A DNA stretch of 64,000 nucleotides. Source: Thermoproteota archaeon. Lineage in GTDB: Archaea > Korarchaeota > Korarchaeia > Korarchaeales > Korarchaeaceae. Of this stretch, positions 6,168 through 53,743 are shown piece by piece. The position numbers and the translations under genes were made by a program. The first letter of the stretch is position 1. Each line of letters starts with the position of its first letter. The notes below the pieces were generated by a model, which worked only from the letters and a program-made list of their open reading frames with translations, ran no database searches and was not told the DNA's origin. The stretch covers positions 310,001-374,000 of the forward strand of contig JALSOH010000006.1 in NCBI GenBank assembly GCA_026986575.1, given 5' to 3'.

Positions 6168-6866
6168 ATGTTCATAAAAGACAAGCTTGGCTCAGGTAGG
6201 TTCCTCGAGAGGCCCAATCGTTTCTTAGCAGTCTTAGACACGCTAGAGGGGAGGAGAAGATGCCATGTAAGGGATCCAGGAAGACTCACCGAATTGTTCG
6301 TGTGGGGTGCTCCGGTCGTCTTCCTAGAGAGATCTAATCCGGGGAGAAAAACCGATTGCGAGGTCCTCCTAGTGTGGGACGGCAGGGTGTGGACAGTCGT
6401 CAATTCCGGCCTTCATTCGGAGCTAGCTACCGAACTGCTAGCTTCGGGATTTCTACCGGAGCTCCAAGGCTTCGCCTCTGTGAGGAGGGAAGTGAATTAC
6501 GGGGATAGCAGGGTGGATTTCATGCTGGAATATCCGGGGAGGGTCCTCTATCTCGAGGTGAAGGGGTGCACGCTAGTCAGGGACGGCATGGCCCTGTTCC
6601 CGGATGCCCCCACCGAGAGAGGGAGGAGGCACGTGCTGAACCTGATCCGAGCTGTCGATGAGGGACATAGCGCGGCCGTTCTCTTCCTCGTGATGCGGCC
6701 GGACGCTGAATTTCTCATCCCAAACGCTAGGACCGATCCCAAGTTCGCTGAAGCCCTCAGAGAGGCCGAAAATAGGGGAGTGAGGATGCTCGCCGTCACC
6801 TTCCGTTACTTCGCTAGGAGAATCGAGCCCCTCGCCCGTATACCCGTGATTACCTCTCCTCAGTAA
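6168..6866 (+). CDS. sfsA: SfsA family protein (sugar fermentation stimulation homologue)
   Basis: SfsA-family protein with an N-terminal OB-like DNA-binding part and a nuclease-like fold. Recognised by GRFLERPNRFLAVLD, the HVRDPGRLTEL segment, KTDCEVLLVWDG, and the PD-(D/E)xK-like core with DSRVDFML then YLEVKGCTLV and FPDAPTERGRRH. These hold the acidic and lysine residues of a nuclease site (D, E-V-K). The start at ATG 6168 is chosen over in-frame codons back to 6123 because a TATA element lies 25 bases upstream and because homologues begin just before the RFL segment. The 3' end overlaps the open frame of the convergent glycosyltransferase. Biological role is poorly known even in bacteria. 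Confidence 0.85.
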   Translation: MFIKDKLGSGRFLERPNRFLAVLDTLEGRRRCHVRDPGRLTELFVWGAPVVFLERSNPGRKTDCEVLLVWDGRVWTVVNSGLHSELATELLASGFLPELQGFASVRREVNYGDSRVDFMLEYPGRVLYLEVKGCTLVRDGMALFPDAPTERGRRHVLNLIRAVDEGHSAAVLFLVMRPDAEFLIPNARTDPKFAEALREAENRGVRMLAVTFRYFARRIEPLARIPVITSPQ

Positions 6867-9203
6867 GATCCTCCTAACGCCCCAGTAGACGAGGGCGAGG
6901 GAGAGAAGAGTCAGCGCGATGAAGGGATCAGAGCAGGGGTCCGCCGGTCCCATCGGATCGCACTTGAAAAGGGGCCCACTTATCAGCTTGGGAGTGACCC
7001 AAGACAGAACCGGGATGGAGGCAGCCAGCTCCATCAGGGCCAGGCCGGGCCCCCCGCCCATCATCGACACCATAAAGAGGGGTATTAGGGACCAATAGGG
7101 CCTTCCACCGGCAATTAAAAGGAAGACCCCGGCGGAAATGACCGAAACCTCTCTCTCGTTTCTCCAGATGAAGATGGGTATAAAGGCAGCAATGAGGCCT
7201 GCTAAAAGGGAGTATTCACCGAGTATGGGTCTCAACAACCCTCCAGTCACGTCAGAGGGCCAGTGGATCGATCCCGGGATGAGCATGGGCGGGATCAGTC
7301 CAGCTAGTACCCCTAGCGAGTAGATACGACCGTTCATCGAGATGACCAACGGGGCCGCGGTCAGGGTAAGCGGATTCACGGCACCCGAGATCCCTAACAG
7401 GACCGACGAGGGCAAGCGTCTTCCTCTTCTGGCCAGCATCATCGAATCCATAGCAAGAGCTACTGCCAGAATCGTCCAGTCGGATGAGGAGAGGAGCAGC
7501 ACGGCTAGGAGAGGTGCGTAAGTGAGGCCTCCACTCCCCTCGTAGAGGTCTAGGAGGATTATCAGGGAGGAGAGCATGACGATCATCCCGTAGGCCGCTC
7601 CCCTGATCCAGAGCTCGGATGAAGACTCGGTGAGGAAATGAGTGAGCACGTTAGAGAGGCCGATATCGTCCAGTCCGAGGAGCGCAGCTGGGCTGGTGGG
7701 CATGAAGGCCATGTAGTAGAGGACGAGGGAGGAGAACGCTGCCGTGAGGATTCCAAGGGAGAGGGAGAGACTCCTCGTATCCATGGCTAGGAGCGGTCTT
7801 AGGAAGGACAGTTCCTCAGGTAACTTCAGTCCTTCACCGAGCAGCGCTCTCGAGATATTCCTCCATTCCTCGCTGAGGTATCTGTTAACCTCACCTTCCC
7901 AGAGGGACAGGTAGGCCATGACCACTGAGAACGAGACAGCTACGGTTGAGGACAGCTGTACCGCGTAGAAGCTGTAGAGGGTCCTGTTTCCTTTCAAGAA
8001 GATGGCAGTATACCCCATTACGATGGAGCCGACGAACAGGATGGGTATATACTCCCTCCTCCTCTCTAGGAGGGCCGGAAGCAGGATGAAGGAGAACGCG
8101 AACACGAACGCGTAGGACACTAGGTTCACTCTGGCTATGAGATCGGGATTGTAATGAAGGGCCATCGGCGCTAGGTTGAAGAACCACGCCCATGGGGGGG
8201 AAGGGGTTGGGCCGCTTCCCCTGCTCGTTGTGTGCCATGCCACGGCGTTCAGGTTTTCAGTGATCCACCTCTCCACCCCTAGGTAGGAGATTACTGGGAG
8301 GGAAATTAGGATGTACGTTAAGGCGGGCGCTAGAACCTTAACTGAGGAAGGAAGGACCCTCTCCCTCCTGTATATCCTGAGATAGAGGTAGACGGCTAAT
8401 ACTACGAACAGTCCGCTGAATTTTACGGAGAACGCGAGCCAGCCAGCGATGGAGGCCGCCAGCGGCCTATCGTACACCACGAACAGGAGGGCTAGGGTTG
8501 TGAAGAAGGCTAGGTGTATGTCGAGCATGGCCACCATGCTCATGGAGACGAACATGGGATCGAGCACCAGGGAGAGGGATGCCACGACCCCCCACAGGGG
8601 ATTGAGTAACCTGCTTCCTATCAAGTAAACTAGGATAACCATGATGAAGCCTTCAATTAAACCTGGTAGCCTCCAACTCATCGGCTCATCGCCGAACAGG
8701 ATCATCGAGGCCATTATCAGGTACTTTCCCAATGGGGGATGCTCTAAGTTCAGGTAGTCATAGATGCCCTTCTTCGAAGGATACTCGAAGCCCGGTCTCA
8801 CCTTTATGGCTCCCCCACATCCCTCAAGCTTTGATAGGTTGGATTCTGGCACTCTCACCCAGAGAAGAGGTACTTTGTCCCCCGTCTCCGTGTAGTTGGC
8901 CCTCACCACACTCCCGTCCAGCTCGGAGAGGCACCTCTCCACATCGCTCATATGCTCCTCCAAGAACTCGCTGGATGTGAAGACGAGGGTCGCGTAAGCG
9001 TAACCCTCCCTCACGTACTTTGCGTTAACGCCGAATACCTCTTTAAGTAGGTTTCTTGCCGAGGTGGCGTACCACACCTCATCGCTTACGTAGTAATCAT
9101 CTCCCCTGTACTTACCTGACGATATCTCCCAGTAAGCGTAGCTTACGTAGGCCGTAGCCATGAGGAGGGTCAGCAGCAGACCTATCAGGAATGATCTCCT
9201 CAT
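6573..9203 (-). CDS. PMT-type dolichyl-phosphate-mannose protein mannosyltransferase (GT39-like)
   Basis: Large polytopic membrane glycosyltransferase of the PMT/GT-C fold, expected to move mannose from dolichyl-phosphate-mannose to surface proteins on the outer face. The first loop after TM1 carries the acidic DE motif (YYVSDEVWYATSARNLL), and EHPPLGKYLI is the PMT signature. Many hydrophobic spans follow, ending with FIALTLLSLALVYWGV. ATG at 9203 follows the previous gene's TGA by one base with GGTGGTGAG before it. The frame runs on through 97 codons antisense to sfsA (6573-6866); this hydrophilic tail is unlike the rest. The functional protein may end near 6867, where TAA occurs in the neighbouring frame. 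Operon partner of the Dpm1-like gene that would make its donor. Confidence 0.8.
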   Translation of the reverse strand: MRRSFLIGLLLTLLMATAYVSYAYWEISSGKYRGDDYYVSDEVWYATSARNLLKEVFGVNAKYVREGYAYATLVFTSSEFLEEHMSDVERCLSELDGSVVRANYTETGDKVPLLWVRVPESNLSKLEGCGGAIKVRPGFEYPSKKGIYDYLNLEHPPLGKYLIMASMILFGDEPMSWRLPGLIEGFIMVILVYLIGSRLLNPLWGVVASLSLVLDPMFVSMSMVAMLDIHLAFFTTLALLFVVYDRPLAASIAGWLAFSVKFSGLFVVLAVYLYLRIYRRERVLPSSVKVLAPALTYILISLPVISYLGVERWITENLNAVAWHTTSRGSGPTPSPPWAWFFNLAPMALHYNPDLIARVNLVSYAFVFAFSFILLPALLERRREYIPILFVGSIVMGYTAIFLKGNRTLYSFYAVQLSSTVAVSFSVVMAYLSLWEGEVNRYLSEEWRNISRALLGEGLKLPEELSFLRPLLAMDTRSLSLSLGILTAAFSSLVLYYMAFMPTSPAALLGLDDIGLSNVLTHFLTESSSELWIRGAAYGMIVMLSSLIILLDLYEGSGGLTYAPLLAVLLLSSSDWTILAVALAMDSMMLARRGRRLPSSVLLGISGAVNPLTLTAAPLVISMNGRIYSLGVLAGLIPPMLIPGSIHWPSDVTGGLLRPILGEYSLLAGLIAAFIPIFIWRNEREVSVISAGVFLLIAGGRPYWSLIPLFMVSMMGGGPGLALMELAASIPVLSWVTPKLISGPLFKCDPMGPADPCSDPFIALTLLSLALVYWGVRRILLRRGNHGYTGEGLDSPSEVTEGDGEHPHSPIFGLSEGFSELGIGPSVWDEKFSVRPHHEEENGRAMSLIDSSDQVQHVPPPSLGGGIREQGHAVPD

Positions 9204-9204
9204 C

Positions 9205-10251
9205 TCACCACCACACCATGCTCTTGCTGAGGACATAGTTCACGAGGAACCCGACCAAGATGCCCACGAACTGGGAAGCCAAGGACTCTATCCCAAGGAA
9301 CCTGTGGAGGGATACCGAGACGCCGTACTGGGTGAATATGCCGGCCAGGTTGGCGGCATGATACCTCAGAACGCTCTGAATTAACCCGCTCCTTCTCCTC
9401 CTCCTAAATGTCCAGACATCGTTGAGCAGGAAGTTGCTCAGAAGAGATACCTCTATGGCGACGGCAGATGCGACCTCGTGTATCAGCCTGAGACCGTACC
9501 TCAGGATCCAGAGGACCGTCAAGTTTACTACCGTGCCAACGGCCCCCACTATTGCGAATCTGACTATGGGGGGGCTGAGCTCCATTACGTGCAACAAGTA
9601 GCTCAGTATTACGCCGCCTCCCAGCTTCGAAGAACCCCTCCCCCTCAAGCCAAAGGTATAGGGGACTTCACACACCTTGGAGTAGTTTCCCTTCACCAGC
9701 ACCTCTAGGAGGATCTTGAAGCCCTTAGGGTCCAGCTCCCCAAAGATCTCCTCTACAACAGATCTCCTGAACATGAAGTAACCGGAAGAAGGATCTCTTA
9801 TACCTCTGACCTTGGGAAGGAAGATCCAGGCGAGCAGTATTGATCCCTTAGAGATCATCCTCCTTATCAGCCCCCACCCAGTCACGGACCCTCCTTCCAC
9901 GTACCTAGAGGCTATTACTATGTCACAACCCTCCATCACCTTCCTGTACAGTTCGGGAAGCAGTTCAGGCGGGTGTTGGAGATCGGCATCCATCACCGCC
10001 ACTACCTCCCCCTCGGCCAGCTCCAGTCCCTCGACCACGGCCGAGGAGAGCCCCATCTTCCCAGGCCTCACCTTGACCTTGATGGGATACTTGGAGGAGA
10101 GCTCTCTTGCTAGGTCGGCCGTCCCGTCTGGGGAGTTATCGTCAACTATCACTATCTCATAATCCACACCGGCCAGTGCCCCATCTATTCGACTCACCAG
10201 CTCCTCTAAGTTATCCCTCTCATTGTAGGTGGGGATGATTATGCTGATCAA
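9205..10251 (-). CDS. dolichyl-phosphate mannose synthase-like GT2 fused to GtrA domain
   Basis: N-terminal GT-A glycosyltransferase family 2 domain (residues 1 to about 225) with IIPTYNERDNL, VDDNSPDGTA, the DxD metal site in VMDADLQHPPEL, and SRYVEGGS: the Dpm1 pattern for making polyprenyl-phosphate mannose from GDP-mannose. Residues about 232-348 form a four-span GtrA-like membrane domain (VRFAIVGAVGTVVNLTV, LLSNFLLNDVWTF). This fusion is common in archaea. ATG at 10251 has AAAGGAGG upstream. It precedes the PMT gene directly and fits with the ManC gene at 32330 that would supply GDP-mannose. Sugar specificity is inferred from family. Confidence 0.88.
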   Translation of the reverse strand: MISIIIPTYNERDNLEELVSRIDGALAGVDYEIVIVDDNSPDGTADLARELSSKYPIKVKVRPGKMGLSSAVVEGLELAEGEVVAVMDADLQHPPELLPELYRKVMEGCDIVIASRYVEGGSVTGWGLIRRMISKGSILLAWIFLPKVRGIRDPSSGYFMFRRSVVEEIFGELDPKGFKILLEVLVKGNYSKVCEVPYTFGLRGRGSSKLGGGVILSYLLHVMELSPPIVRFAIVGAVGTVVNLTVLWILRYGLRLIHEVASAVAIEVSLLSNFLLNDVWTFRRRRRSGLIQSVLRYHAANLAGIFTQYGVSVSLHRFLGIESLASQFVGILVGFLVNYVLSKSMVWW

Positions 10252-10301
10252 GGCTGGTGCCTCCTTTGGGGTCAGGAAGGCCTGCGTAAAAAATTTCCTC
10301 G

Positions 10302-11339
10302 TCAGAGAAGGTTCCAGTACTTGGATAATACGCTCTTAGCATCGTCTACGGCCAGTCTGGCTCTTCGAATAATGTAGTCGTCCTCATTCGGAGCCCTGCC
10401 TTCGATCTCCTCTGGGTCGAAGTCTATATCTAGGGATGCAAATCCTCTAACTATAGCCAGCCACCCCCAGTTCCTCACATCCTCGTTGTAACCGCTTATG
10501 AGAAGTTCCACCCTGTGATCAGCCGGAAGTGAGGACGCCCACCTCCCCAACCTCCAGAGCCCCCTCAAATCCAGTCCCAACTGTGTGAGGGGGTCCAGAA
10601 AGTGTGGATCGCTTCCCCCATGGGCTATGAGTAGCTTGGGCGCGAAAGACTCAACGATGGGCTTCACCAGCTCCTCGAAAGCCATCTCATAGGAGGAGGG
10701 TCCCGCCCCAGGAGGTAGGGGGATGTTGACCGTATATCCCTCTCCCCTTCCCCTCCCCACCTGTCTCGCGAACCCCACGCCCGGATATATTGTGGTCGGG
10801 TCTTGGTGAATGCTCACGTAAAGGACCGTGTCGTCCTCGTAGAATATGTCCATGGTGCCGTTCCCGTGATGGGCATCGTGGTCGAATATCGCCACGGACT
10901 CAACACCGTTCCTCCGGGCCCATTTGGCCGCAATAGCGATGTCATTCAGCAAGCAGAAGCCCCCACCATATCTGGCGCTGGCATGATGGGCACCGCCGAA
11001 TCCCGCAGCTCTTCTCTCCCTCAAAGCTAGCCTGACAGTGGACATGGAGGAGTGGACCATGCTGAGCGCAGCCTCCCACATCCCCTTGAATGCTGGCGTA
11101 TCTAGGGAGACCATACCATGCCCGGTCTGACTCCTGACCCTGAGGAAGTTCAGGTACTCGTCGTCGTGAACTGCCCTCAGGTCCTCGATGGTCGGTGGTT
11201 CGCCGATGTACCCCACCAGCTCGAAGGGCTCTCCTCTCTCTTGGAGGAACCTGATGAAGATGGGGAACCTGTCTCCTCTGAATGGATGACCCGGACCGAA
11301 GTCGTATGAGGATATGGAATCGTCGTAGACGAACTTCAT
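10302..11339 (-). CDS. histone deacetylase family (AcuC-like) deacylase
   Basis: Zn-dependent arginase/deacetylase-fold hydrolase of 345 residues, removing acyl groups from lysines, polyamines or small molecules. Seen are the active-site pair H118-H119 (GGAHHAS), the zinc and charge-relay region FDHDAHHGNGT (D153, D155, H157, H158), SIHQDP, and the second metal loop HGGSDPHFLDPL. SGYNED near the C-terminus may hold the catalytic tyrosine. The site looks complete. It stands alone on its strand between the GT2 gene and the divergent GTPase. Target (Alba-type chromatin protein, acetyl-CoA synthetase or other) cannot be told from sequence. Confidence 0.88.
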   Translation of the reverse strand: MKFVYDDSISSYDFGPGHPFRGDRFPIFIRFLQERGEPFELVGYIGEPPTIEDLRAVHDDEYLNFLRVRSQTGHGMVSLDTPAFKGMWEAALSMVHSSMSTVRLALRERRAAGFGGAHHASARYGGGFCLLNDIAIAAKWARRNGVESVAIFDHDAHHGNGTMDIFYEDDTVLYVSIHQDPTTIYPGVGFARQVGRGRGEGYTVNIPLPPGAGPSSYEMAFEELVKPIVESFAPKLLIAHGGSDPHFLDPLTQLGLDLRGLWRLGRWASSLPADHRVELLISGYNEDVRNWGWLAIVRGFASLDIDFDPEEIEGRAPNEDDYIIRRARLAVDDAKSVLSKYWNLL

Positions 11340-11413
11340 CTGGGAATGGACTTGGGTGAATCCCTTAACCTTAACTTACCTACCTATACTCCCTGTCCCA
11401 GTGCGGCGCGGAA

Positions 11414-11422
11414 GATATAAAG
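11414..11422 (+). promoter_or_regulatory. TATA box for leaderless GTPase mRNA
   Basis: GATATAAAG is centred 25 bases before the ATG at 11443. This spacing supports a leaderless start there rather than at upstream in-frame codons. Confidence 0.6.
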
Positions 11423-11442
11423 CGTCGCTACACTTACTCTGG

Positions 11443-12234
11443 ATGAAGGTAGCCAGCTGGAGGGAAATAGCTAAAGCGATGGACAGGGTAAATGTGGTGC
11501 TGGAGGTCGTCGACTCTAGGGATCCTTGGACGACCAGAAGCCGGAAACTCGAGGAGATGGCTAAGAAAAGGGGAAAGAATATCATCGTAGCGATAAACAA
11601 GTCAGACTTGGTTCCTAGGGAGATACTAGAACAGTGGGTGAGGATATTCGATGAGGAGGACTTGAAAGCAGCCTATGTTAGCGCGAGAGAGAGACTGGGC
11701 ACCATGAGGTTGAGGAGGTTCATCAAGAGGGAAGCCCCCGAGCTGCCAGCAAAGGTGCTCATAGCAGGCTTCCCGAAGGTGGGAAAGAGCTCAATAATAA
11801 ATGTCCTTAAGGGGAGGAGCTCCGCCTCAACCAGTCCTGTGCCTGGCAATCCCGGGTACACGCGCCACTTTCAGCTCTACAGGATAGACAGGAACCTGTA
11901 TATACTGGACTCCCCAGGTATCCTCCCAGTGGAGGGCGGTCCGCTTGAAATGGCCATAAGGGGGTATCCTCCCGAGGAACTGAAGAATCCCGTGGAAGTC
12001 GCCGTGTCCCTCTTGGAGAGAGCCCTCAGATCTAATCCCGGGATTGTGAAGAGGACCTATGGTATCGAGGAGACGGATCCCATCGAGATACTGGAGCAGT
12101 TAGCAGAGAAGAGAGGCTGGAGGTTCAAAGATGGGGAACCAAACGTGGAGGAGGCAGCTAGGCAAGTGATCAGGGATTATCATAGGTATAAGCTCATCTT
12201 CTACGTCACTCCCAAGGATCTAGGGCTCATCTAA
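11443..12234 (+). CDS. circularly permuted GTPase (YlqF/RbgA/NOG family)
   Basis: Cytoplasmic GTPase with the G motifs in permuted order: NKSD (G4) near residue 55, then the P-loop GFPKVGKSS (G1), a TSPVPGNPGYTR segment (G2), and DSPG (G3). This order defines the YlqF/RbgA/NOG/MTG1 family of ribosome assembly factors, mostly acting on the large subunit. The start at 11443 is set by the TATA box; the frame is open 29 codons further up, but that part reads like untranslated leader. The C-terminal helical region after residue 190 is typical. The last 8 bases overlap the convergent GIY-YIG-like gene. Exact ribosomal role is inference. Confidence 0.88.
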   Translation: MKVASWREIAKAMDRVNVVLEVVDSRDPWTTRSRKLEEMAKKRGKNIIVAINKSDLVPREILEQWVRIFDEEDLKAAYVSARERLGTMRLRRFIKREAPELPAKVLIAGFPKVGKSSIINVLKGRSSASTSPVPGNPGYTRHFQLYRIDRNLYILDSPGILPVEGGPLEMAIRGYPPEELKNPVEVAVSLLERALRSNPGIVKRTYGIEETDPIEILEQLAEKRGWRFKDGEPNVEEAARQVIRDYHRYKLIFYVTPKDLGLI

Positions 12235-12661
12235 GCCTGTAAAGGGGGTTCCATATCAGGTAGACCCTCCCCCATTCGATCTTTCCCAAGATCTCTAGAG
12301 CCTCTTTGAGGTCCTCACCTAGCAGGTAGAGGTGGGTCTCATCAGCCTTCCTGTCCGAGCAGCCGAATCCCCTAACGACTGGGACACCCACCTCCCCGAG
12401 GATTCTAGATAAGGACCCTTCCTTAGCGTCGGGCAATGCCAAGGCGCATGGAACGTCCATGACCTCTGTCAAGTAGTCCACATGCCACTTAAGGATCTTC
12501 CCTTTCCTGAAGTGCCTCCCTATCCTAGCTCCTAGGCCACCAGGTCCCGCTGCTGAGCCGACGTACGCGAGAACGCCAGCTGGAAACTCGAAGGCCCCCA
12601 ACCTTCCCACTTCAAGGATGGCGCCGGGAGAGATTATCAGGAGGATGTAAGCTCCCTTAAC
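12227..12661 (-). CDS. DUF123 / GIY-YIG-like protein, start codon unclear
   Basis: Small archaeal protein of the DUF123 group, related to GIY-YIG nucleases. Motifs are AYVGSAAGPGGLGAR, HFRKGKILKWHVDYL, and VRGFGCSDRKADETHLYLL. The first usual start codon in frame is GTG at 12610, but the family's first strand pair (GAYILLIISPGAILEVGRLG) is encoded just upstream in the same frame back to about 12661, with no ATG, GTG or TTG there (GTT at 12661-12659). Either an unusual start codon is used, the protein starts late, or a small indel lies at the junction with the upstream phosphatase gene, which stops at 12667. The coordinates here include the conserved upstream part. Nuclease activity is unproven for the family. 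Confidence 0.7.
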   Translation of the reverse strand, partial: VKGAYILLIISPGAILEVGRLGAFEFPAGVLAYVGSAAGPGGLGARIGRHFRKGKILKWHVDYLTEVMDVPCALALPDAKEGSLSRILGEVGVPVVRGFGCSDRKADETHLYLLGEDLKEALEILGKIEWGRVYLIWNPLYRLR

Positions 12662-12666
12662 TCCCC

Positions 12667-13434
12667 TTAGCGGATCAGGTCCATCAAGCTCCTCAAAACG
12701 TACTTGGGTCGAGGTACCACCCCCTCGTACTCCTTCACCACCCCGGTGAGGACCAAAGCTGAATCCATTCCCGCCCTCAAGGCCCCTAGAATGTCTGTCT
12801 CCGGTCTGTCTCCGATCACTAGGGGATGGGACGCCCCTACGCTTCGGGAGGCGAGGAGGAACATGAGGGGATTCGGTTTACCCACTACAACATCCGGTTT
12901 CCTGCCACAAGCCCCGGAGATTGCTGAAACCATGGAGCCAGCTCCAGGAATCGGTCCATCTGATGTGGGAAGGGTGCGATCGTCGTTAGTAGCTAGGAAG
13001 AGCCTCCCTCTCAATATGTTCCTCAAGGCCCTCGTTAGCTTCTGGTAATTGAAGGACCTGTCCATTCCCACGCACACGTCACCATCATCCGAGATGTCCA
13101 CGCCCCTCTCCCTTAACTCCCCCTTTAAGCCCTCCTCCCCGACCACGTAACACCTCCCCACCCCTATCGAGGGGATTATGTCGGCAAGCGTGCTAGCGCT
13201 AGTTACCACGTGCCCTTCTCCAACCCATCCTAAGCCTGCATCCCTCAGAAGGGAGGCTATCACGCGTCTGTGACGGGTGGAGTTGTTGGTTACGAACCTG
13301 ATTTCAATCGTAGAGGAGAGCTCGTTGAGGGCCTCCACGGCGCCTCTTATTGGCTTTCCATCAAGCCAGACGACGCCGTCTATATCCACGAGCAGCAGAT
13401 CATATCTACCAACGTCCGGTCTTTGTCCTGACAT
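12667..13434 (-). CDS. HAD phosphatase, NagD/p-nitrophenylphosphatase-like (type IIA)
   Basis: HAD-superfamily hydrolase with a C2A cap. Motif I is LLVDIDGVVW (nucleophile and acid aspartates), motif II FVTNNST, and motif III/IV appear as GKPNPLMF (lysine) and VIGDRPETDILGALRAG (acidic pair). Cap segment lies between residues about 80 and 180. Substrate is probably a small phosphate ester such as 2-phosphoglycolate or a sugar phosphate; NagD-like enzymes are promiscuous. ATG at 13434 is preferred to GTG at 13443. It overlaps the 3' end of the archaemetzincin gene by 29 bases, so the two are probably co-transcribed. Confidence 0.88.
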   Translation of the reverse strand: MSGQRPDVGRYDLLLVDIDGVVWLDGKPIRGAVEALNELSSTIEIRFVTNNSTRHRRVIASLLRDAGLGWVGEGHVVTSASTLADIIPSIGVGRCYVVGEEGLKGELRERGVDISDDGDVCVGMDRSFNYQKLTRALRNILRGRLFLATNDDRTLPTSDGPIPGAGSMVSAISGACGRKPDVVVGKPNPLMFLLASRSVGASHPLVIGDRPETDILGALRAGMDSALVLTGVVKEYEGVVPRPKYVLRSLMDLIR

Positions 13435-13972
13435 CGAGAACACCCAGCTTCTCTAGGCACTTGTCACAGGGTCTCCAGTCCTTTCTGTCAACGTCCCATA
13501 CAGAGAGGCTGAAGTTCATGACGCAGCCCGGAGTGGGACAGTGGTCCAAGCCTAGGAGATGACCTAGCTCATGGGAGGCCTCCTTAAGAGTTCTCAGGAG
13601 GAAAAGGGCCCTGTTCTCCCTCTCACCGTAAAACTCCGGCTTGAGTCTGGGGAGGTAGATGGACCCGAACCTTCCCCCAAGCTCAGCCTGACCAAAGATG
13701 AAGTTGGTCCCTTTGGCGTACGCATCTTCATCCACTACAGCAAGTACTTTCTCATCCGATGCCCATCTGTCTATCTGCCACAGGTACTCTAGGAACTTCT
13801 CGCTCCTCAGCTGCTGGGTGTTGTGGTCGTACAACGTCGGGGGAATTTTAATCTCGGTGTAATCGATTTCCACATCAATTGGATAGGCCTGAGGCAGCTT
13901 CTCGGCGAGGAATTCCAGTATCCAATGGTATATGAAGCCAGCTGGAACAACCACGAGCTTCCCTAGCAGCAT
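13406..13972 (-). CDS. amzA: archaemetzincin zinc metalloprotease
   Basis: Archaemetzincin of 188 residues. The extended zinc motif is present as H134-E135-x-x-H138-x-x-G-x-x-H144, followed by C145, C150 and C169/C172 (CDKC), the four cysteines that bind a second, structural zinc in this family. VMNFS after C150 is the Met-turn region. ATG at 13972 has GGAGGTAAAG just upstream, and a TATA box (TTATATAGT, about 14000) precedes it. No signal peptide, so it acts in the cytoplasm. Substrate unknown. Likely first gene of a transcript continuing into the HAD phosphatase and perhaps the GIY-YIG-like gene. Confidence 0.93.
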   Translation of the reverse strand: MLLGKLVVVPAGFIYHWILEFLAEKLPQAYPIDVEIDYTEIKIPPTLYDHNTQQLRSEKFLEYLWQIDRWASDEKVLAVVDEDAYAKGTNFIFGQAELGGRFGSIYLPRLKPEFYGERENRALFLLRTLKEASHELGHLLGLDHCPTPGCVMNFSLSVWDVDRKDWRPCDKCLEKLGVLDVRTKTGRW

Positions 13973-14008
13973 GCTTTACCTCCGCTACAGTGCCGCCAGA
14001 CTATATAA

Positions 14009-14302
14009 CTAGAGCATCTCCTGAACCACCTTCAGGAAGTAAGGATCGCTCTCGTGAACGACCCTCCTAACCTTTATCCTCCTCCCCTTCAAGGTTACCT
14101 CGTAATCGACCATGGCGTAAATTCCCCGAGGTGTGATCCAGCTTCCCTTGTGATACGACATGGGGGCCTTGATCTCCACGTGGTAGCCCTCCTCTGAATA
14201 GAACTGCTCTGGCCACCTCTGCTCGTCCCTTAGATGAACCAGTCTCAACCCGGGTTCCCACCTAACGTCGTTAACTCTTTTTACCTCTCTGACCTTGAAC
14301 AT
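14009..14302 (-). CDS. small protein of unknown function
   Basis: 97 residues, not recognised. Strand-rich and basic, with aromatic residues in RWPEQFYSEEGYHVEIK and a WITPRGIYAMVDYEV segment that suggests a small beta-barrel or beta-sandwich. No cysteines, no membrane span. Its own promoter-like ATTTTAAGAG lies about 35 bases upstream on the minus strand. Stop at 14009 is just before the archaemetzincin promoter. Confidence 0.65.
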   Translation of the reverse strand: MFKVREVKRVNDVRWEPGLRLVHLRDEQRWPEQFYSEEGYHVEIKAPMSYHKGSWITPRGIYAMVDYEVTLKGRRIKVRRVVHESDPYFLKVVQEML

Positions 14303-14376
14303 CCACCCGACCCGGGTGGTCGTTCACCTAAACTCTTAAAATGGGGTGCTGATGCCTGTTATTTCTCCTTATTACC

Positions 14377-15033
14377 TCAGTAATAGAGGTCATAGCTGAT
14401 GGTGTAGGCGGGCCTGAACCTCCTGCCCAGACCCCATATCAATCCCACGACGAAGCCGCCAGCATGGGCCAGCACATCCACATTGGCTGAGAAACCACCG
14501 AAGATCACGAAGAGCGCTATGAATATGGTGGAGGAACTAAGCTTCCCAGTCACCCTATATTCCATGGCCACCATGTATCCTAAGAGGCCCATTATAGCTC
14601 CCGAGGCTCCCACTCCCACCGTGCGGGGATCGAGGAAGGCTGATAGGAGGTTCCCAACCACGCCCGAGATGAAGTACATGAGGAGGTACTTGACCTTACC
14701 TAAGGATAGCTCAACCACTTTACCTAGTATGTAAAGGGCGTACATGTTCAGCCCTAGATGGAGGATGTTGGCGTGGAGGAACATCGACGTGATGAGTGTG
14801 TAGTACCTACCGTGCATCAAGTAGAGGCCCGAACTGCCGAAGTAGAGGAGCACATATCTGTTCGCCTCGAGGAGTTCGGGAGATGTCATGGCGTAGAGCC
14901 CGAGATTGATCGAGATCAGGGCCGAGGTCACCTCAGGAATGCTGGAATACATTTTAAAGAGGATGAACGAGAAGAGGGTGACGCCAATGCCCAGAAGGAT
15001 CTCAGTCAGGAGTTCCATCATCTTTTCGATCAC
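14377..15033 (-). CDS. rhomboid family intramembrane serine protease
   Basis: 218 residues with six to seven membrane spans. The serine is S144 in GVGASGAIMGL and the histidine is H190 in LAHAGGFVVGL, the catalytic dyad of rhomboids. LHANILHLGLNMYAL gives the conserved N96 and preceding histidines of the oxyanion site. It overlaps the reductase gene by 4 bases (ATGA), so it is translationally coupled to it. Substrate unknown. The cluster with a lipid reductase and a thioredoxin-like protein suggests a membrane-related function, which is inference. Confidence 0.92.
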   Translation of the reverse strand: MIEKMMELLTEILLGIGVTLFSFILFKMYSSIPEVTSALISINLGLYAMTSPELLEANRYVLLYFGSSGLYLMHGRYYTLITSMFLHANILHLGLNMYALYILGKVVELSLGKVKYLLMYFISGVVGNLLSAFLDPRTVGVGASGAIMGLLGYMVAMEYRVTGKLSSSTIFIALFVIFGGFSANVDVLAHAGGFVVGLIWGLGRRFRPAYTISYDLYY

Positions 15034-16148
15034 CGTAGCATGTACTTCAGTGCCTCGGCGAGGGCCGACGCAGCTGATCCTATATTCAGGGAAGCTAATT
15101 TAAGAATTTTAGGTAAACGACTGATTTTGAGTGGTGCTGACTGCCTGTCCACGTGAAAGTCCTTTTCCACGAGGCCCTCCTCACGAACTAGGGTGAAGAG
15201 CGTGTCAATCTGTCGGTCATTCAGGTATTCCAGATACTTCCTCACGGCCCATCCCAAGGAGATCTCACGCCTATTGTGCTCCCACCACCTCGACTCGTAG
15301 CACCTCAGTGCCCTCTTCAAGTCGTCCAAGTCCTCGAGACAGCTGGCCAGATTCTTGGCTCCCCTAACAGCTAAGAGGACTCCCCCCCTACTAACAGGCT
15401 TTATTTGGCCGGCTGCATCTCCCACCAGCGCCACATTATCTACCCAGAATCTCTTTCTCGGACCTACCGGGATCACCCCTCCCTCGTACCCGATCGCCGG
15501 ATCTCCCGAAGTCTCTTGGATCCATGTGAGCAGAGGGTCCTCGACCCTTCCCAGTGCCCCCACTTTCCTCCCTCCCTTCCAAGGCTGGATCCAGCTGAAT
15601 CTGCTACCCTTCCTCACTTTCACATGGTAACCATCCATCTCCCCACCCTCCACTATCTTGTGAACCCCTACCTCAAACCCCATGGGTGGAAAGCCGAGCT
15701 CATCGGCAACAGAGGAGAGGGCCCCATCCGCCCCCACCAGCAGGTTGTACTCGATGACCATATCGCCTACAAGAGCCTCGTTCCTCGATCTTAGTCCCTT
15801 GAATCCTGCCGAGAGGAAACCCCTAGCTCCCTCTGAGAGCGCCGCCTCCCAAGTCTCCCTGTCCATCCGGGCTCTGTCGACGACCGTGGCTAGGTGCCTC
15901 CGCACCTCTATTTCATTACCTCCGGGGGATACGAAGGTCGCCCAGTTTACTTCCCCGATGACCCATTCCTCGGAGAATAGTATGAGCTCGCTTACGGCGT
16001 CTGGACCCAGTATACCTGAGCAGTGGTGCGGATGCCCTATAACTCTTCTTCTCTCAACCACGACAACGGAGAAGCCCTTTTTCGACAGTAGATATGCGAG
16101 TGTAGAGCCAGAGATGCCTCCTCCAACTATGAGCACCTCGGTACGCAT
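15030..16148 (-). CDS. geranylgeranyl reductase family FAD protein (archaeal lipid saturation)
   Basis: FAD-dependent oxidoreductase of the GGR family, which hydrogenates double bonds of isoprenoid chains in archaeal lipids or quinones. The N-terminal Rossmann motif is VLIVGGGISGSTLAYLL with VVVVERR. HPHHCSGIL matches the family's cysteine motif (PxxCxG), and the second FAD segment is VALVGDAAGQIKPVSRGGV. Length 372 is typical. It starts at 16148, where the thioredoxin-like gene ends, and overlaps rhomboid by 4 bases. Genomes often have several paralogues, so specificity for digeranylgeranylglycerol lipids is likely but not certain. Confidence 0.85.
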   Translation of the reverse strand: MRTEVLIVGGGISGSTLAYLLSKKGFSVVVVERRRVIGHPHHCSGILGPDAVSELILFSEEWVIGEVNWATFVSPGGNEIEVRRHLATVVDRARMDRETWEAALSEGARGFLSAGFKGLRSRNEALVGDMVIEYNLLVGADGALSSVADELGFPPMGFEVGVHKIVEGGEMDGYHVKVRKGSRFSWIQPWKGGRKVGALGRVEDPLLTWIQETSGDPAIGYEGGVIPVGPRKRFWVDNVALVGDAAGQIKPVSRGGVLLAVRGAKNLASCLEDLDDLKRALRCYESRWWEHNRREISLGWAVRKYLEYLNDRQIDTLFTLVREEGLVEKDFHVDRQSAPLKISRLPKILKLASLNIGSAASALAEALKYMLR

Positions 16149-16408
16149 CAGGAGACCTCTGGAAGCTCTATCCTCCCCTCAGAGATCAGTTTTCCCTCGA
16201 CTATGACGGCCGGGACCTTTCTTATACCTAGTTCCAGTATGTAACTCTGCCCCTCCGGCTCCAAGGCAGAGACCTCTCTGATCTTCAGGCCCCTGCGACG
16301 GGCCCACTCCTTCAGTTGGCGGGCAGCATCCAAGGAGGATTCACATATAGGTGACACCAGAACAATTATTTCCCTTTCTTCCTTTGCTCTATCAACTTCT
16401 TCCTCCAA
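16148..16408 (-). CDS. thioredoxin/glutaredoxin-fold small protein (CxxS site)
   Basis: 86 residues with a thioredoxin-like pattern: strand IIVLVSP, then C-E-S-S at the active-site position (a monothiol CxxS rather than CxxC), a helix, a strand LKIREVSAL, and the cis-proline segment RKVPAVIVEGKLI. It overlaps the upstream regulator gene by 43 bases in another frame, so the start could be internal and the true protein slightly shorter. Ends at the reductase start, so the two are coupled. May be a disulfide or thiol carrier; function is inference. Confidence 0.7.
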   Translation of the reverse strand: MEEEVDRAKEEREIIVLVSPICESSLDAARQLKEWARRRGLKIREVSALEPEGQSYILELGIRKVPAVIVEGKLISEGRIELPEVS

Positions 16409-17160
16409 TTCCTATCCCTCAGGACGTACTTGTATGGCTTCCCGTTGCCTACCCTCTCCACAAGCTCCTCCTTTTCCAAGTCCTTTATGTACCTCCTCAC
16501 GGTCACTTCGGCCAGCCCGAGCTCCGAAGCTATGGCTATGGTCCTCATGGGTTTGGCTGCCTTCTCGAGGACCTCGAGCACCCTATATCTCCCCGTAGCT
16601 CTAGGCATCATCACATTCTTGAGCGATTCGACCTCCTCCCTGCAGAGATCCTTCTCCGCCTTAGCCAGCGCAAGCTGGTACATGAGGGTAGCGAACAGGC
16701 CCAATGTTCTCTCGGCAACACCGTTACCGGCGGAGGGACCCAGCGCCTTGGGGGCCCACTTGAGATAATCGTTCAGCACCTTACTCATCGCATCTATCAG
16801 TGAGGAGAACATGGCCTCCATGGAGTCCCTGGCGGCCTGTGTGAGCAACCTCACCTCAGCTTCGTCCAACTCCCTAATATCCCCAGCCTTTATGAGAAAT
16901 TCGACGTCCTGCTGGAACTGATTGGCGAATCTATCCCTATTCATCCTGAAATGATCGGTCAATTTGTCGGTAAGGAGGCTGGGAATGTGATTCACCGCCT
17001 CCAAGCTCTTCTTAAAGGATGAGATGAGTTCGTAGAGGGGGCCCTCGTTTAGGGGGAACGTTTTGTTTAGTCGGTCCAAGTGATTGATGACTCTGGTCCT
17101 CATTTCCGGCGAGAGACTGTTTAAAAGATCCTTGAAGTCGTCTCGTAAATTCCCGGCCAA
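16366..17160 (-). CDS. winged-helix regulator with a long helical N-terminal region
   Basis: 264 residues. Residues about 1-185 are predicted helical with no known domain. Residues about 190-250 form a winged helix: a first helix YRVLEVLEKA, then MRTIAIASELGLAEVTVRRYIKDLEKEELVERVG with helix-turn-helix and wing. A basic tail follows (RKKLIEQRKKGK). Likely a DNA-binding transcription factor. It heads the cluster thioredoxin-like, GGR, rhomboid and may regulate it. A TTTTTAG-like box lies about 35 bases upstream. The N-terminal part may sense or dimerise; no ligand motif was seen. Confidence 0.7.
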   Translation of the reverse strand: MAGNLRDDFKDLLNSLSPEMRTRVINHLDRLNKTFPLNEGPLYELISSFKKSLEAVNHIPSLLTDKLTDHFRMNRDRFANQFQQDVEFLIKAGDIRELDEAEVRLLTQAARDSMEAMFSSLIDAMSKVLNDYLKWAPKALGPSAGNGVAERTLGLFATLMYQLALAKAEKDLCREEVESLKNVMMPRATGRYRVLEVLEKAAKPMRTIAIASELGLAEVTVRRYIKDLEKEELVERVGNGKPYKYVLRDRNWRKKLIEQRKKGK

Positions 17161-17215
17161 TTTGGAATCCCCTCTATCGATGCTGGGGTTGAACTAAAAA
17201 CCTAATTTTCATACT

Positions 17216-18028
17216 TCACTCTACATTTAAAGGTCTCACTAAAAAATCCACACGTATTTTGTACACTCTAGGAGCATAGCTGGAGACAATGCGGTGACCT
17301 ACGGAGGTGGCCTCTAAACCTAGGGAAGTAGCCTCCTTCCTGAACATCTCTTCGGCCTCCGAGAGGGCCTCATCTCCCCCCCAGTAGTAAAAGTGAACGA
17401 CACCTCTCCCTCCCCTGAGCGCCCGGAGGGCGTGACCGATGAAGGCGTAAGCTCCCTTAGGCAGGGGCATGACCACCCTGTTGAATTTGCCGTACATGGC
17501 GGGCGTGACGTAAGCCACATCCCCCTCAACGGGGAAGACGAGGTGCCCTACCCTGTTGAGGATAACATTCTCTTGGAAGTACTTGACAGCTGTCGGGTTC
17601 AACTCGATCCCGACCACTTGGGCCCTCCTGCGCTTGGCGATGGCGATCGCGTAGGGGCCGGCTCCCGCAAACATCACCAGCACCAGCTCCCCATCCCTCA
17701 CGCTTTCCGCCACCAGCTGCCTCTCGGTCGATTCCCTGGGGGAGAAGTACACCCTACGGGGATCAAGCTTTATCCTGTATCCGTGTTCCTTGTGGATGAC
17801 CTCAGTCTCCTCGCTGCCGGCCAAGAGCTTCAGGGGCCTCACCCTGAACTCACCCTCTCTAGCCCCCGCTTTCAACAAAACGGACTTGACGTGGGGATGG
17901 CGACTCATCACCTCCTTAGCTGCCTCCTTCGGGTCCATGTCGTCGGGTACTTCTACGATGGCCACGGCTCCCGTTTCCCTAGAGCCTATGAGATCGTAAG
18001 GTATCCTAAGTCCCTTTTTCTTATCCAA
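17216..18028 (-). CDS. trm5: Trm5-like tRNA (guanine37-N1)-methyltransferase
   Basis: Class I SAM methyltransferase of the Trm5/TYW2 group. The N-terminal part (residues 1 to about 95) is the small D2-like domain; RVYFSPRESTERQ leads into the SAM fold with LVMFAGAGPYAIAIA (motif I), VVGIELNPTAVKYF (motif II), and VMPLPKGAYAFI in the place of the N/D-x-P-x catalytic motif. YAPRVYKIRVDF is the usual C-terminal signature. m1G37 prevents frameshifting and is the first step to wyosine. It overlaps TatD by 8 bases in a set of RNA/DNA enzymes. TYW2 is the main alternative; the MPLPKG site favours Trm5. Confidence 0.8.
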   Translation of the reverse strand: MDKKKGLRIPYDLIGSRETGAVAIVEVPDDMDPKEAAKEVMSRHPHVKSVLLKAGAREGEFRVRPLKLLAGSEETEVIHKEHGYRIKLDPRRVYFSPRESTERQLVAESVRDGELVLVMFAGAGPYAIAIAKRRRAQVVGIELNPTAVKYFQENVILNRVGHLVFPVEGDVAYVTPAMYGKFNRVVMPLPKGAYAFIGHALRALRGGRGVVHFYYWGGDEALSEAEEMFRKEATSLGLEATSVGHRIVSSYAPRVYKIRVDFLVRPLNVE

Positions 18029-18782
18029 GACCGTACACCTTCATGGCGTTTCCGGTTGTTATCTCTGCCAAATCCTCTACATCAACCCCCTTCATTTCGG
18101 CCACGAACTTTGCTGAGATCCTGATGTTCGCAGGTTCGTTCCTCTCCTTGGGGTTGGGAGCGAGCACAGGTGAGTCGGACTCCAGCACCATGTGATCCAC
18201 TGGAGTGGCCCTAGCCACCTTCTGAACGTTGTTGGATCTTACCACGTTGGTGGGGACACTGATAATCCATCCCCTCTCCACCGCAAACCTGACATCCTCC
18301 GGGGTCCCTCCAAACGCATGTAGGATGATCCTCTCAGCCCCTTCCTCATCTAACACTCTTAGAACGGGTCTTTGGGCCCACAGGCTGTGAATTACCAATG
18401 GTTTGTCCAGTTCTTTGGCGAGCCTTATGAAGAGCCTAAACACCTCCTTCTGCTTCTCTTTCGGGGGACCACCGGACCTTAGAATTCTGTAATCCAGTCC
18501 CACCTCTCCTACCGCAACTATCTCATTGGCGTGGGCCCTTATCAGGTCCATGGTAATCTCCACCTCCTCCTCGTCCCCGTACTCAGCGACATCTAATCCA
18601 ATAGACACCTTCACCAGCTGATGTCCCCTGAACAATCTTAGAGCCTTCTCCGCATCTTCTGGGTAAATGGGAGAGGTCACTATGCCCACTAGTCCAGCTT
18701 CTCTCGCCCTCTCAATCACTTCATCTCTATCCCCGTCGAAGGCCTCCTCCTCGAGGTGACAGTGGGCGTCAAATAACCTCAT
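18021..18782 (-). CDS. TatD family metal-dependent hydrolase / nuclease
   Basis: TIM-barrel hydrolase with FDAHCHLE (HxH metal site), VAVGEVGLDYR (Glu ligand), PLVIHSLWA, LHAFGGTPED and LESDSPVLAPNP (Asp ligand), the ordered TatD motifs. TatD proteins are 3' to 5' DNases/RNases or related hydrolases. ATG at 18782 is chosen because it overlaps the TGA of the upstream ncsA gene by one base and begins right before the first metal motif; the frame is open 28 codons further up inside ncsA. Length then is about 253 residues, normal for the family. Confidence 0.88.
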   Translation of the reverse strand: MRLFDAHCHLEEEAFDGDRDEVIERAREAGLVGIVTSPIYPEDAEKALRLFRGHQLVKVSIGLDVAEYGDEEEVEITMDLIRAHANEIVAVGEVGLDYRILRSGGPPKEKQKEVFRLFIRLAKELDKPLVIHSLWAQRPVLRVLDEEGAERIILHAFGGTPEDVRFAVERGWIISVPTNVVRSNNVQKVARATPVDHMVLESDSPVLAPNPKERNEPANIRISAKFVAEMKGVDVEDLAEITTGNAMKVYGLG

Positions 18783-49849: not shown

Positions 49850-52800
49850 ATGCGAGGCCTCATGAAGGTAAAATTCGGGCTGCTGTTGATACTTCTACTC
49901 CTCCTACCAGCTTACGGCGTGAAGGCGACCACTCCGAGAACCCTAGTGGTCCATACTGGGACGGCTTGTATCTCCGGCGACCTGTACTTCGATCTACCTA
50001 GCGAAGCCCTGTCTTCAGCCTCCCCTAGTGATACGATACTCGTGTGTCCCGGAACCTATAGGGATAATGTGAAGATTGTAGTGAGCGATATCTCGTTCAG
50101 AGGTGTGGGTGACCCATCACAGGTCAGGATAGAGGCCCTAAATACCACCCAGAATGTCATAGAGCTGTGGAACGTGAGGAATGTGACGGTGGAGAATTTC
50201 ACCGTGGTAGGTGCTATCGGCTCCCAGATGGCGGGAATACACGTCCAGCTCTCTAGTGAGAGTCTCATCAGGAACATCGTCGCCACGGGTAATTACTTCG
50301 GGATCAACGTAGTATCGAGCTCAAACATCACTCTCAGCGGGATCGACGCGAGCAATAACACTAACGTGGGGATCAACGTGAAGGGGACAGTGATATCAGC
50401 GATCCGCGAATCCTCGGCCGAGGGGAACAGGGTAGGCCTGCTCCTCCTGTTCACATCCGATACCCTAGTAGAAAAGGTGAACACCACCGGAAACTCAGAA
50501 GGAGGGGTGCTGCTGGAGTACTCGGCCAACAACACATTCTCAAACCTGTTCTCCGGTAGGAACGGATGGTACGGGATCTACTTGGAAGATTCTGACGATA
50601 ATTCATTCTCTGATATCGTGACGGTGAACAACACGGCTTCTGGAAGCGACGGTTACGGTATCTACATCTACTTGAGGTCCGAGGACAACGAGTTCACCAA
50701 GATGAGTACTGAGGGAAACATCTACGGGGTTGCCGTGGTGTCACAATCCAACAGGAATTCCCTGACGAATTCCACGATGGAGAACAACACGATAGCTGGA
50801 GTTTACGTGGAGGCGAGCGAGGGTAACGAGATAGATGCGGAGATCTCGGGTAGCATGTACGGAGTGTGGATCCAAGACGGAAACGGTAACGAGATCAGAG
50901 GGGAGATAAGTGAATGCAGGTGGGGTGTGCTACTCTCCGGCCTCTCCGGATCGTCGGGCAATGTGATCAACGGCACATCTATACACGACAATTCGTATAC
51001 GGGCGTAATAGTGGAAGGTAACTCATCCCGAGGTAACGTAATTACTAGGATCTCTTCCTACAACAACACTCTATTGGGCATAGACTTGGGTGGAGACTTC
51101 GTGACGCTCAACGACGGTTCGCTGTCCACGGGTCCCAACGACCTAGTGGATTATCCCGTCTTCTCTTGGGCCGCTGTCTACGGGAGCAGGCTCATAGTGA
51201 GGGGTTACATAAATGTAGAGGGATCGAACAGCGCCAATTCCAATTTCGATAATGCAACCGTGGAGATCTACCAGTCTGACGGGGATCCCAGCGGATACGG
51301 TGAGGGTCTGAGGTACTTGGGCACTCTGATGGCGGAAAATGGTGAATTCATGGGATGGATAGATCTACCTCCCGAGCTGACCTCCAAGCCCATAAATCTG
51401 ACCGCTCTGACTACACTGCTCCCACACGGGACTTCCGAGTTCGGTCCGGTATACGAGGCGCCCGCTGTGGCGACGAACCTGACCATCTCCAAGTCCATCA
51501 ACCCTTCCACGGTGACGCCCAATTCCACAGCAGAAGTTTTACTCCTGATCAGGAATTACGGCAACGGAACCGCGTACAACGTCACGGTAACTGATGTACT
51601 CCCGGAGGGCATGGAATACATTAACGGAACCGCGAGGGTCGATGGAGACATTGTGGAGCCGGAAATCGAGGGCAGGAATCTGAGCTGGTTGCTGGATGTG
51701 CCAGCCTACTCCGAGGTCGTCATAAGGTTCAACGTCTCGATCAACGCACCAGCCGGCACGACCTTGGAGAACTTGGTGGTCTTCGATGGAGATTACGGGG
51801 ATGGGAACGACACCGATGAGGTCGATGTGATAAACCCGGCCATATTAGAGGTCACCAAGGAGGCCCAGCCCGACCTAGTGGATGTGAATGAGACAGTCAA
51901 CTACACGGTGATCCTCGCCAACTCTGGCGGAATGTCCGCCCTCCTGATGGTGGAGGACCTACTTCCATCTGGGATGAATTACGTGAATGGATCCTTCTCA
52001 TCCAACCAGACCGTGGACGGTCCGGTGATTGAGGGCGGACATATGAGGTACAACATCACCTTGAATCCAGGCCAAGCAGCTAGGGTGACGTATTCCCTCA
52101 TGGCAACAACATACGGCACTAAGGAGAACAAAGTATATGTCAACAACTCCTTCATGGCATCTGCCTCCGTGCTCGTGAGAGACCCGCCGCCTCCACCGCC
52201 TCCCGACAGTGGTGGTAACACCGGAGGGTCTAACCGCAGGAGAACCCCACCACCGTGCGGTTGGATACCCCCGAACAATGACATAGAGGATCAAGCCCCC
52301 CAGAATAATGGGGAAGAAACTCATAACTACAGGCTGACCAGTCCCCCGATAGTCTTGGTGTCATTGGGATCCCAAGGAATCTTCTCCTCTCATGGAGGGC
52401 AGGGTAGCTCCGGAACGGGATCAGGATCCAGCGGGAGCATCTCCACTTCGCAGAACGGGAGCGAAAACGGCATATCTGGAGTGGCTGGAGTAACCAGTCC
52501 TCCCTTGGTGGTGGTCGAGCTGATGGCCACACCGACTTCAGCTGAGACCGGGACGCCCATCACGTTCGTGGTCAGGGTGAGCAACATAGGGGATGGTCCA
52601 TCCAAGGATCTCTCCCTCACGGTGGACCTCACAAGCGGCTTGGACTATGTGAAAGGCACCTCCATGGTCGGAGGTCTCCGAAGGGAGCCAGATAACGAGA
52701 ATAACAGGCTAGAGTGGGAGATTGGGGACTTGGACCCAGGTAAAGCCGTCGAGGTCAGCTTCAGGGCTGAATTGCTGGCCACATCCGGCAGCTTCAACGT

Positions 52801-53743
52801 GGTAGCCAAGGCCGACTCCTCATCTGATAGCGTACTGATATCGGTTAAGCCCAAGTCCAAACCCGCCCCACCGAAACCGCCGGCCCCGCCACCCGAGGTG
52901 GTCGACCTCAGGGCATCTGCTAGCAACTCTGGAGGTAACAGCCGCATAAGGGTGACTATATCAAGCCCGACCGGGGCGAGATCCGTCAAGATACTGGTGA
53001 ACTTGGACCCGTCGCTCAGATACGTTCAGGGAAGCTCTAGAATAGGGGGAATAGCCTCACCCCCCAAGGTGAGCGGGAACGTGCTGGAATGGCATGTCTC
53101 TATTTCAAAGGGAGGCACGGCCACCATAACGTTCGAAGTAGCGCCAGCTGATGAGGAGTCTACTGGTGGTAGCGTGCTGGTCTCCCTGCCCAAGTACGGG
53201 AAGAGCGTCAAGGTGGAGGTGGAGTTCAGTCCCGCCCAGAGAGGGGTTGCTCCACCACCAACCTTCAGCATAGAACTGCCGTCCCTTCCGTCAATCCCGT
53301 GGTGGGTGATACTAATTCCCTTGGCACTGATCCCCTTCCTGCTGGCGGTGAGAAGGAGGGAAAGGGTCAAGAGGATAGTGATGGATTACGAGGCGCTGAA
53401 GTGGGCGGTGAGGAGAGGGGTCCTAGAGGACCTAGTCCAAGACCACGAGATACTGATACCCATGGAGACCTTCAACAAGCTGAGCAGGGACCGGGCTCTC
53501 ATGTCCTCCATAGAGAAGCTCATAGTTGACAGGGCTATAAAGGTCGAGAAAGCCCCGAAGAGGAAGATCGTCGTGAAGGGGGCTGACGAGGAGCTTTCAG
53601 CCGCTCTGGGTCTGGCGGACAGGGAGGGCATACCGATATACACCGGCAGGGAGGAACTGCTCAAGGAGCTCAAAAGGAGGGGCTTCGATGCGAGGTTGAT
53701 AAGGGAGGCCCCCCCGCCGGTGCTGAAGAGGGAGCTCCCCTAA
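49850..53743 (+). CDS. surface beta-helix/DUF11 protein with a cytoplasmic PIN-like domain
   Basis: 1297 residues. Signal peptide (GLLLILLLLLPAYGVKA), then a right-handed parallel beta-helix (about 45-440; NosD/PbH1-like repeats such as NTTGNSEGGVLLEYSANNTF and NDNSYTG-type turns). DUF11-like beta domains follow at about 540-660 and 664-770, a Pro-rich hinge (777-790), a Gly/Ser-rich segment, and two more DUF11-like domains at about 884-990 and 1015-1120. Many N-x-S/T sequons. One span (about 1149-1168, IPWWVILIPLALIPFLLAV) is followed by a basic stretch and a roughly 125-residue cytoplasmic domain that reads like a PIN fold: IVMDYEAL (D1179), ILIPMETFNKL, ADEELSAALGLADREGIPIYTG (D1246, D1257). 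The last usual PIN aspartate (TxD) is absent. Stand-alone gene. Confidence 0.8.
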   Translation: MRGLMKVKFGLLLILLLLLPAYGVKATTPRTLVVHTGTACISGDLYFDLPSEALSSASPSDTILVCPGTYRDNVKIVVSDISFRGVGDPSQVRIEALNTTQNVIELWNVRNVTVENFTVVGAIGSQMAGIHVQLSSESLIRNIVATGNYFGINVVSSSNITLSGIDASNNTNVGINVKGTVISAIRESSAEGNRVGLLLLFTSDTLVEKVNTTGNSEGGVLLEYSANNTFSNLFSGRNGWYGIYLEDSDDNSFSDIVTVNNTASGSDGYGIYIYLRSEDNEFTKMSTEGNIYGVAVVSQSNRNSLTNSTMENNTIAGVYVEASEGNEIDAEISGSMYGVWIQDGNGNEIRGEISECRWGVLLSGLSGSSGNVINGTSIHDNSYTGVIVEGNSSRGNVITRISSYNNTLLGIDLGGDFVTLNDGSLSTGPNDLVDYPVFSWAAVYGSRLIVRGYINVEGSNSANSNFDNATVEIYQSDGDPSGYGEGLRYLGTLMAENGEFMGWIDLPPELTSKPINLTALTTLLPHGTSEFGPVYEAPAVATNLTISKSINPSTVTPNSTAEVLLLIRNYGNGTAYNVTVTDVLPEGMEYINGTARVDGDIVEPEIEGRNLSWLLDVPAYSEVVIRFNVSINAPAGTTLENLVVFDGDYGDGNDTDEVDVINPAILEVTKEAQPDLVDVNETVNYTVILANSGGMSALLMVEDLLPSGMNYVNGSFSSNQTVDGPVIEGGHMRYNITLNPGQAARVTYSLMATTYGTKENKVYVNNSFMASASVLVRDPPPPPPPDSGGNTGGSNRRRTPPPCGWIPPNNDIEDQAPQNNGEETHNYRLTSPPIVLVSLGSQGIFSSHGGQGSSGTGSGSSGSISTSQNGSENGISGVAGVTSPPLVVVELMATPTSAETGTPITFVVRVSNIGDGPSKDLSLTVDLTSGLDYVKGTSMVGGLRREPDNENNRLEWEIGDLDPGKAVEVSFRAELLATSGSFNVVAKADSSSDSVLISVKPKSKPAPPKPPAPPPEVVDLRASASNSGGNSRIRVTISSPTGARSVKILVNLDPSLRYVQGSSRIGGIASPPKVSGNVLEWHVSISKGGTATITFEVAPADEESTGGSVLVSLPKYGKSVKVEVEFSPAQRGVAPPPTFSIELPSLPSIPWWVILIPLALIPFLLAVRRRERVKRIVMDYEALKWAVRRGVLEDLVQDHEILIPMETFNKLSRDRALMSSIEKLIVDRAIKVEKAPKRKIVVKGADEELSAALGLADREGIPIYTGREELLKELKRRGFDARLIREAPPPVLKRELP

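Follow-up and report, generated by a model that had tools for sequence, protein, structure and literature searches.

Most of what is known of PIN domains concerns soluble RNases. A PIN domain can also be attached to a membrane part, as in the bacterial YacL-type PIN-TRAM proteins, which have several N-terminal spans, a TRAM domain, and no known large ectodomain. PIN_9 proteins of the Fcf1(Utp24)-like type (PF18477; PDB 1o4w, AF0591) are small and soluble, and their acidic sites are intact (D, E, D, and D in the members from the phylum studied here). Other described relatives are the VapC-type PIN toxins (PF01850) and Nob1 (PF17146). Some PIN domains are pseudo-PINs, and Nmd4 is one of them. 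Another is SMG5, whose PIN fold has a degenerate, inactive site and acts through a partner, completing the active site of SMG6 in trans (PMC12923823). Pseudo-PINs of the SMG5 type are soluble eukaryotic mRNA-decay factors and have no membrane or surface part. Among archaeal surface proteins, MTCT_1020 of Methanothermobacter CaT2 is membrane-bound with DUF11 repeats outside the cell, and the available part of that report mentions no PIN-derived tail (PMC6759345).

Here we describe a gene in a 64,000-nucleotide stretch of DNA (the window) from the 1.91 Mb, 11-contig genome of a heat-loving Thermoproteota archaeon. Like MTCT_1020, its product is membrane-bound and carries DUF11 domains outside; like the YacL-type proteins it attaches a PIN-derived domain to a membrane part, and like SMG5 that domain is degenerate at its active site. 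Unlike PIN_9 proteins, it is a surface protein with Lys at the second catalytic site, and unlike VapC and Nob1 its tail is tethered to the membrane, has no antitoxin neighbor, and lacks an intact active site. No surface protein with a PIN-like tail was described in the literature searched, which included few subscription-journal papers. The components are individually known, and the combination appears to be new.

Domain organization of the surface protein

A check of open reading frames returned the same 1297-residue frame as the preliminary description, and the membrane-tethered architecture proposed there was also recovered, with a signal peptide, an ectodomain, one further span, and a basic stretch (Table 1). 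The Pfam Beta_helix and NosD matches together span residues 26-440. Four DUF11-like domains had been proposed; three were found by Pfam, while the candidate fourth (about residues 1006-1128) had no Pfam match. Apart from the signal peptide, hydropathy gave a single C-terminal span (windows starting at 1143-1151), and RRRERVKR comes right after it. The related tails described below likewise have a basic stretch after the span. By the positive-inside rule, this motif predicts that the last ~130 residues are cytoplasmic. There are 30 N-glycosylation sequons in the ectodomain and none in the tail. The tail had been described as basic-to-acidic, but K/R outnumber D/E in both halves (15 versus 11 in the first, 15 versus 12 in the second), and thus both are mildly basic.

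Table 1. Features of the surface protein gene, in window coordinates
Feature	Position	Strand	Evidence
Whole gene, single-pass surface protein, 1297 aa	49850..53743	+	ORF; orthologues and synteny in 13 same-genus genomes
Signal peptide, about residues 1-26	49850..49927	+	Kyte-Doolittle windows 1-11 up to 2.06; putative cleavage site
Right-handed beta-helix, secreted, NosD-like repeats, about residues 27-440	49928..51169	+	Pfam Beta_helix 7.8e-26, NosD 6.7e-21
Two DUF11 domains, about residues 541-785	51470..52204	+	Pfam DUF11 2e-10, 7.9e-9
Pro/Gly/Ser-rich linker	52190..52489	+	Among the least conserved parts: 28-84% identity, highest dN
Third DUF11, then DUF11-like segment below Pfam threshold	52487..53233	+	Pfam DUF11 1.3e-10; last segment without match
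Transmembrane helix, about residues 1145-1166, then RRRERVKR	53282..53347	+	Kyte-Doolittle maximum 2.38
Cytoplasmic (predicted) PIN-derived tail, residues 1167-1297	53348..53740	+	hhalign Prob 89-93% to PIN families; residues at PIN sites; AF2/Foldseek

Orthologues and selection on the tail

We compared the locus among 29 genomes of the phylum. Full-length orthologues were present in 13 genomes of the same genus, the window's own included, and a contig scan with the full-length protein as query found close relatives only. The orthologue is a stand-alone, syntenic gene. Where the locus includes both flanks, it nearly always lies between a topoisomerase-like and a CoA-transferase-like gene (named by their sequences), both on the opposite strand; the G018 locus keeps synteny on the topoisomerase side only. 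As judged from these sequences, the gene is old and has been inherited vertically. One assembly (G017) contains two copies, on contigs C62 and C34 (loci L037 and L039), with the same downstream neighbor; the bin probably mixes two strains.

Across the genus, the orthologue tails are 37-97% identical to that of the window protein, in most cases about as conserved as the ectodomain. Relative to the beta-helix, the tail is better conserved in G016 and less so in G009, G013, and G018, which are more distant. Four relatives had usable dS and gave tail dN/dS values of 0.04-0.14 (dS was saturated against G020); a very close pair with few substitutions (G021 versus G017b) gave 0.33. The conservation and the dN/dS values indicate that the tail is a selected domain and not a random extension.

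Relationship of the tail to PIN nucleases

The tail alone had no credible match in Pfam or NCBIfam, phmmer against the PDB gave chance matches only, and none of ten orthologue tails had a PIN match in Pfam. Since single-sequence searches gave only chance matches, profiles were needed. We built one from the ten distinct orthologue tails (A2) and a combined one from 15 tails of this family and the second family described below (A4). The best match of A2 was to PIN_9, over 112 columns with the first Asp kept (hhalign Prob 88.9, score 39.4, against 30 PIN_9 sequences of the same phylum). The controls scored at most 17.2 for 40 column shuffles, 11.6 for the reversed profile, and at most 22.7 for unrelated proteins of the window. 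A4 matched VapC-type PIN domains over 120 columns (Prob 93, score 44.2; shuffled controls at most 14.3), and four divergent tails of the second family did so by themselves over 123 columns (Prob 89.8).

When the 29 genomes were searched with A4, 31 tail copies ranked first (E<1e-12; 20 of 29 genomes), and most of what came next were PIN proteins encoded by the same genomes. Among the 16 best matches other than tails, at least 11 were PIN-family loci, here meaning loci listed for PF01850, PF18477, or PF11848. The best PDB sequence match of A4 was 2lcq (E=0.003), deposited as VapC6 and, we take it, Nob1 of Pyrococcus horikoshii. A Nob1-specific origin, which this match brought up, was not borne out, as hhalign against four Nob1 sequences of the phylum was weak (Prob 2.8).

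AF2 models from six sequences were modest (pLDDT 64.9 and 70.2, pTM 0.50 and 0.60), and their order of elements fits PIN. Foldseek searches with these models returned mostly PIN structures with probabilities up to 0.99 and TM-scores of only about 0.3-0.48. The matches included 1o4w near the top, Utp24, SMG6, SSO1118, the archaeal helicase 5f4h, which presumably contains a PIN domain, and 3ix7, which we take to be the PIN domain of a YacL-type protein; one list was headed by methylglyoxal synthase. The PIN-like assignment made in the preliminary description thus agrees with hhalign, the genome-wide search, the PDB profile match, and Foldseek. The sequence profiles carry the case, and the models are consistent with it. 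On profile homology, the tail is a descendant of a PIN nuclease of the Fcf1/VapC type.

The genome of the window is rich in VapC, with 54 PIN (PF01850) matches versus 4-6 in the same-genus G009, G013, and G022. With the Pfam model and the four-member phylum profile, Nob1 (PF17146) was not convincingly detected in any of the 24 genomes of the same family, while it was found in G001, G002, G003, and G005. To our knowledge, Nob1 is near-universal in archaea.

Residues at the PIN catalytic sites

Catalytic sites were mapped through the hhalign alignments. In the window protein, site 1 is D1179, site 2 is K1210, site 3 lies near S1250, and site 4 is R1267; the positions of sites 3 and 4 are alignment-dependent, with a leeway of a few residues. 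Site 1, the first Asp of strand 1, is D in all 15 aligned tails. Site 2, Glu in active PINs, is Lys in all ten distinct orthologues, and Glu was found only in the giant tail of G002, a member of the second family. Orthologues have S, A, T, or P at site 3, never an acidic residue, and R, E, N, or D at site 4, with Asp in three of ten (G010, G013, and G018). The acidic residues proposed earlier (D1179, D1246, and D1257) are all at the positions given for them and D1179 is site 1, but the other two are not equivalents of catalytic sites: D1246, which is D or E in orthologues, precedes site 3 by about one helical turn, and D1257 is variable. The conserved acid besides D1179 is D1214, which had not been named. 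All 15 aligned tails, from both families, share D1179, Y1180, T1207, and D1214; two G006 tails outside this alignment keep the Asp and not the Tyr. Many tails of the giant family are more degenerate, and some have no C-terminal strand and helix.

By this mapping, three of the four canonical acidic sites are lost in the window tail. It is very unlikely that the tail has a canonical PIN active site, and it is probably non-catalytic, as in the inactive-scaffold alternative of the preliminary description. A shifted constellation of D1179, D1214, and D1246 could in principle bind metal.

A second family of tail-bearing surface proteins

It had been suggested that the same span and tail be sought on other archaeal surface proteins, and the search revealed a second family. 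Seventeen tails from 16 genomes are on surface proteins that reach about 3,300 residues if the contig is long enough. These genomes include the window's own (G000:C9, a 3264-residue frame) and G002, from another class of the phylum. The giants examined carry DUF11 or beta-helix parts, and share with the window protein the span, the basic stretch, and a tail with the pattern DY...T...D. The tails of L107 (G027) and L117 (G006) run past the usual end; by eye, the extension resembles the C-terminal part of DUF3368-type PIN proteins, with Pfam not confirming this for G027.

The gene directly downstream of the giant usually encodes a two-span protein with a C-terminal winged helix. A profile of these partners matches Lrp/AsnC-type regulators (best PDB match 7.6e-8), and Pfam HTH_24 was found in five of nine members. 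All 15 full-length partner copies in the 29 genomes adjoin a giant, and a start codon is at most 7 bases from the stop of the giant in 13 of 14 measured loci. The protein that follows the giant of G027 has two spans, with no winged helix detected, and no two-span winged-helix partner was seen for the second G006 giant. This linkage suggests that the giant tail and the winged-helix protein work together.

In the window's own genome, an operon-like cluster (L085, G000:C9:81000-100500, about 5505-18654) comprises frames of 726 and 254 residues, the 3264-residue giant with its PIN-like tail, and the two-span winged-helix partner. The two shorter frames have a C-terminal hydrophobic stretch and no Pfam match. 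In L050 (G008), L051 (G026), and L102 (G006), a further membrane protein of the winged-helix-regulator kind comes after the partner gene, and two winged-helix domains were confirmed in that of G026 (HTH_24 6.5e-19).

We also considered whether the window protein depends on the same partner. The winged-helix gene is absent beside the window gene, and in G012, G014, G020, and G021 the window orthologue is present with no full-length partner detected (all are drafts, and G014 is 78% complete). These four genomes weaken the idea, and the window protein probably does not need the partner. The search for an antitoxin-like partner suggested earlier found none beside the window gene or its orthologues, where VapBC organization would place one; a conserved partner gene was found for the sister family.

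Possible functions of the tail

We consider it most likely (probability roughly 0.6) that the window protein is a vertically inherited surface protein whose PIN-derived tail has lost its canonical site and serves as a docking or relay module for a cytoplasmic partner. With its beta-helix head, DUF11 stalk, and membrane anchor, the protein would act in adhesion or as a receptor through its ectodomain, and its pseudo-PIN tail would bind a protein or RNA in the cytoplasm. In the giant family, the membrane-bound winged-helix protein is the probable partner of the tail. The tail may signal to it, and the state of the surface protein would thereby affect transcription. We put forward more tentatively, as possible, that these proteins form a hitherto undescribed transmembrane relay system of the phylum, in which the surface receptors have pseudo-PIN tails and the window protein is a stand-alone branch. 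In the giant family the tail would then control the co-encoded membrane winged-helix regulator, and contact at the surface or the state of the envelope would change transcription.

Two other readings concern the nature of the tail itself. If it were some other alpha/beta domain or an extension under rapid drift, the missing Pfam match, the modest models, the low TM-scores, and the methylglyoxal synthase atop one Foldseek list would be explained, but we find this scarcely credible with profile scores far above the shuffled, reversed, and unrelated controls, near full-length alignments, PIN proteins retrieved next after the tails, and the tail identity kept across the genus. The preliminary description had offered a link from surface contact to RNA cleavage, in which the tail would be an active or conditionally active nuclease, perhaps sharing a composite site with another PIN protein in trans. 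The PIN homology, the invariant D1179 and D1214, the Asp at site 4 in three orthologues, the many PIN proteins encoded in the genome, and the precedent of SMG5 and SMG6 would suit this proposal. It is nevertheless improbable, given the invariant Lys at site 2, the non-acidic site 3, and the variable site 4. In addition, the orthologues showed no linked gene for a PIN protein or an antitoxin, their neighbors being the topoisomerase-like and CoA-transferase-like genes, and many tails of the giant family have lost still more.

A plain structural role deserves more weight than either, and we still think it unlikely. The ectodomain would be an adhesin or a component of the cell-surface layer, and the pseudo-PIN tail would just hold the protein in position or tether it to an abundant cytoplasmic complex, without signaling. 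The stand-alone syntenic gene and the DUF11 and beta-helix make-up outside the cell fit such an anchor. So does a DUF11-containing membrane protein of Methanothermobacter CaT2 that is required for aggregation, with the DUF11 region judged not to be the aggregating part (PMC6759345). An anchor, however, needs no 120-residue domain under purifying selection with residues common to two paralogous families, and the close linkage of the giant family to a putative regulator also argues against this reading.

Surface proteins found across a lineage with an apparently non-catalytic, PIN-derived tail would give the PIN fold a new role. One branch of these proteins is closely paired with a membrane-bound winged-helix protein, and the system is a testable candidate for surface sensing in a little-studied archaeal lineage. 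The DY...T...D motif after the span makes the tail searchable in other archaea.
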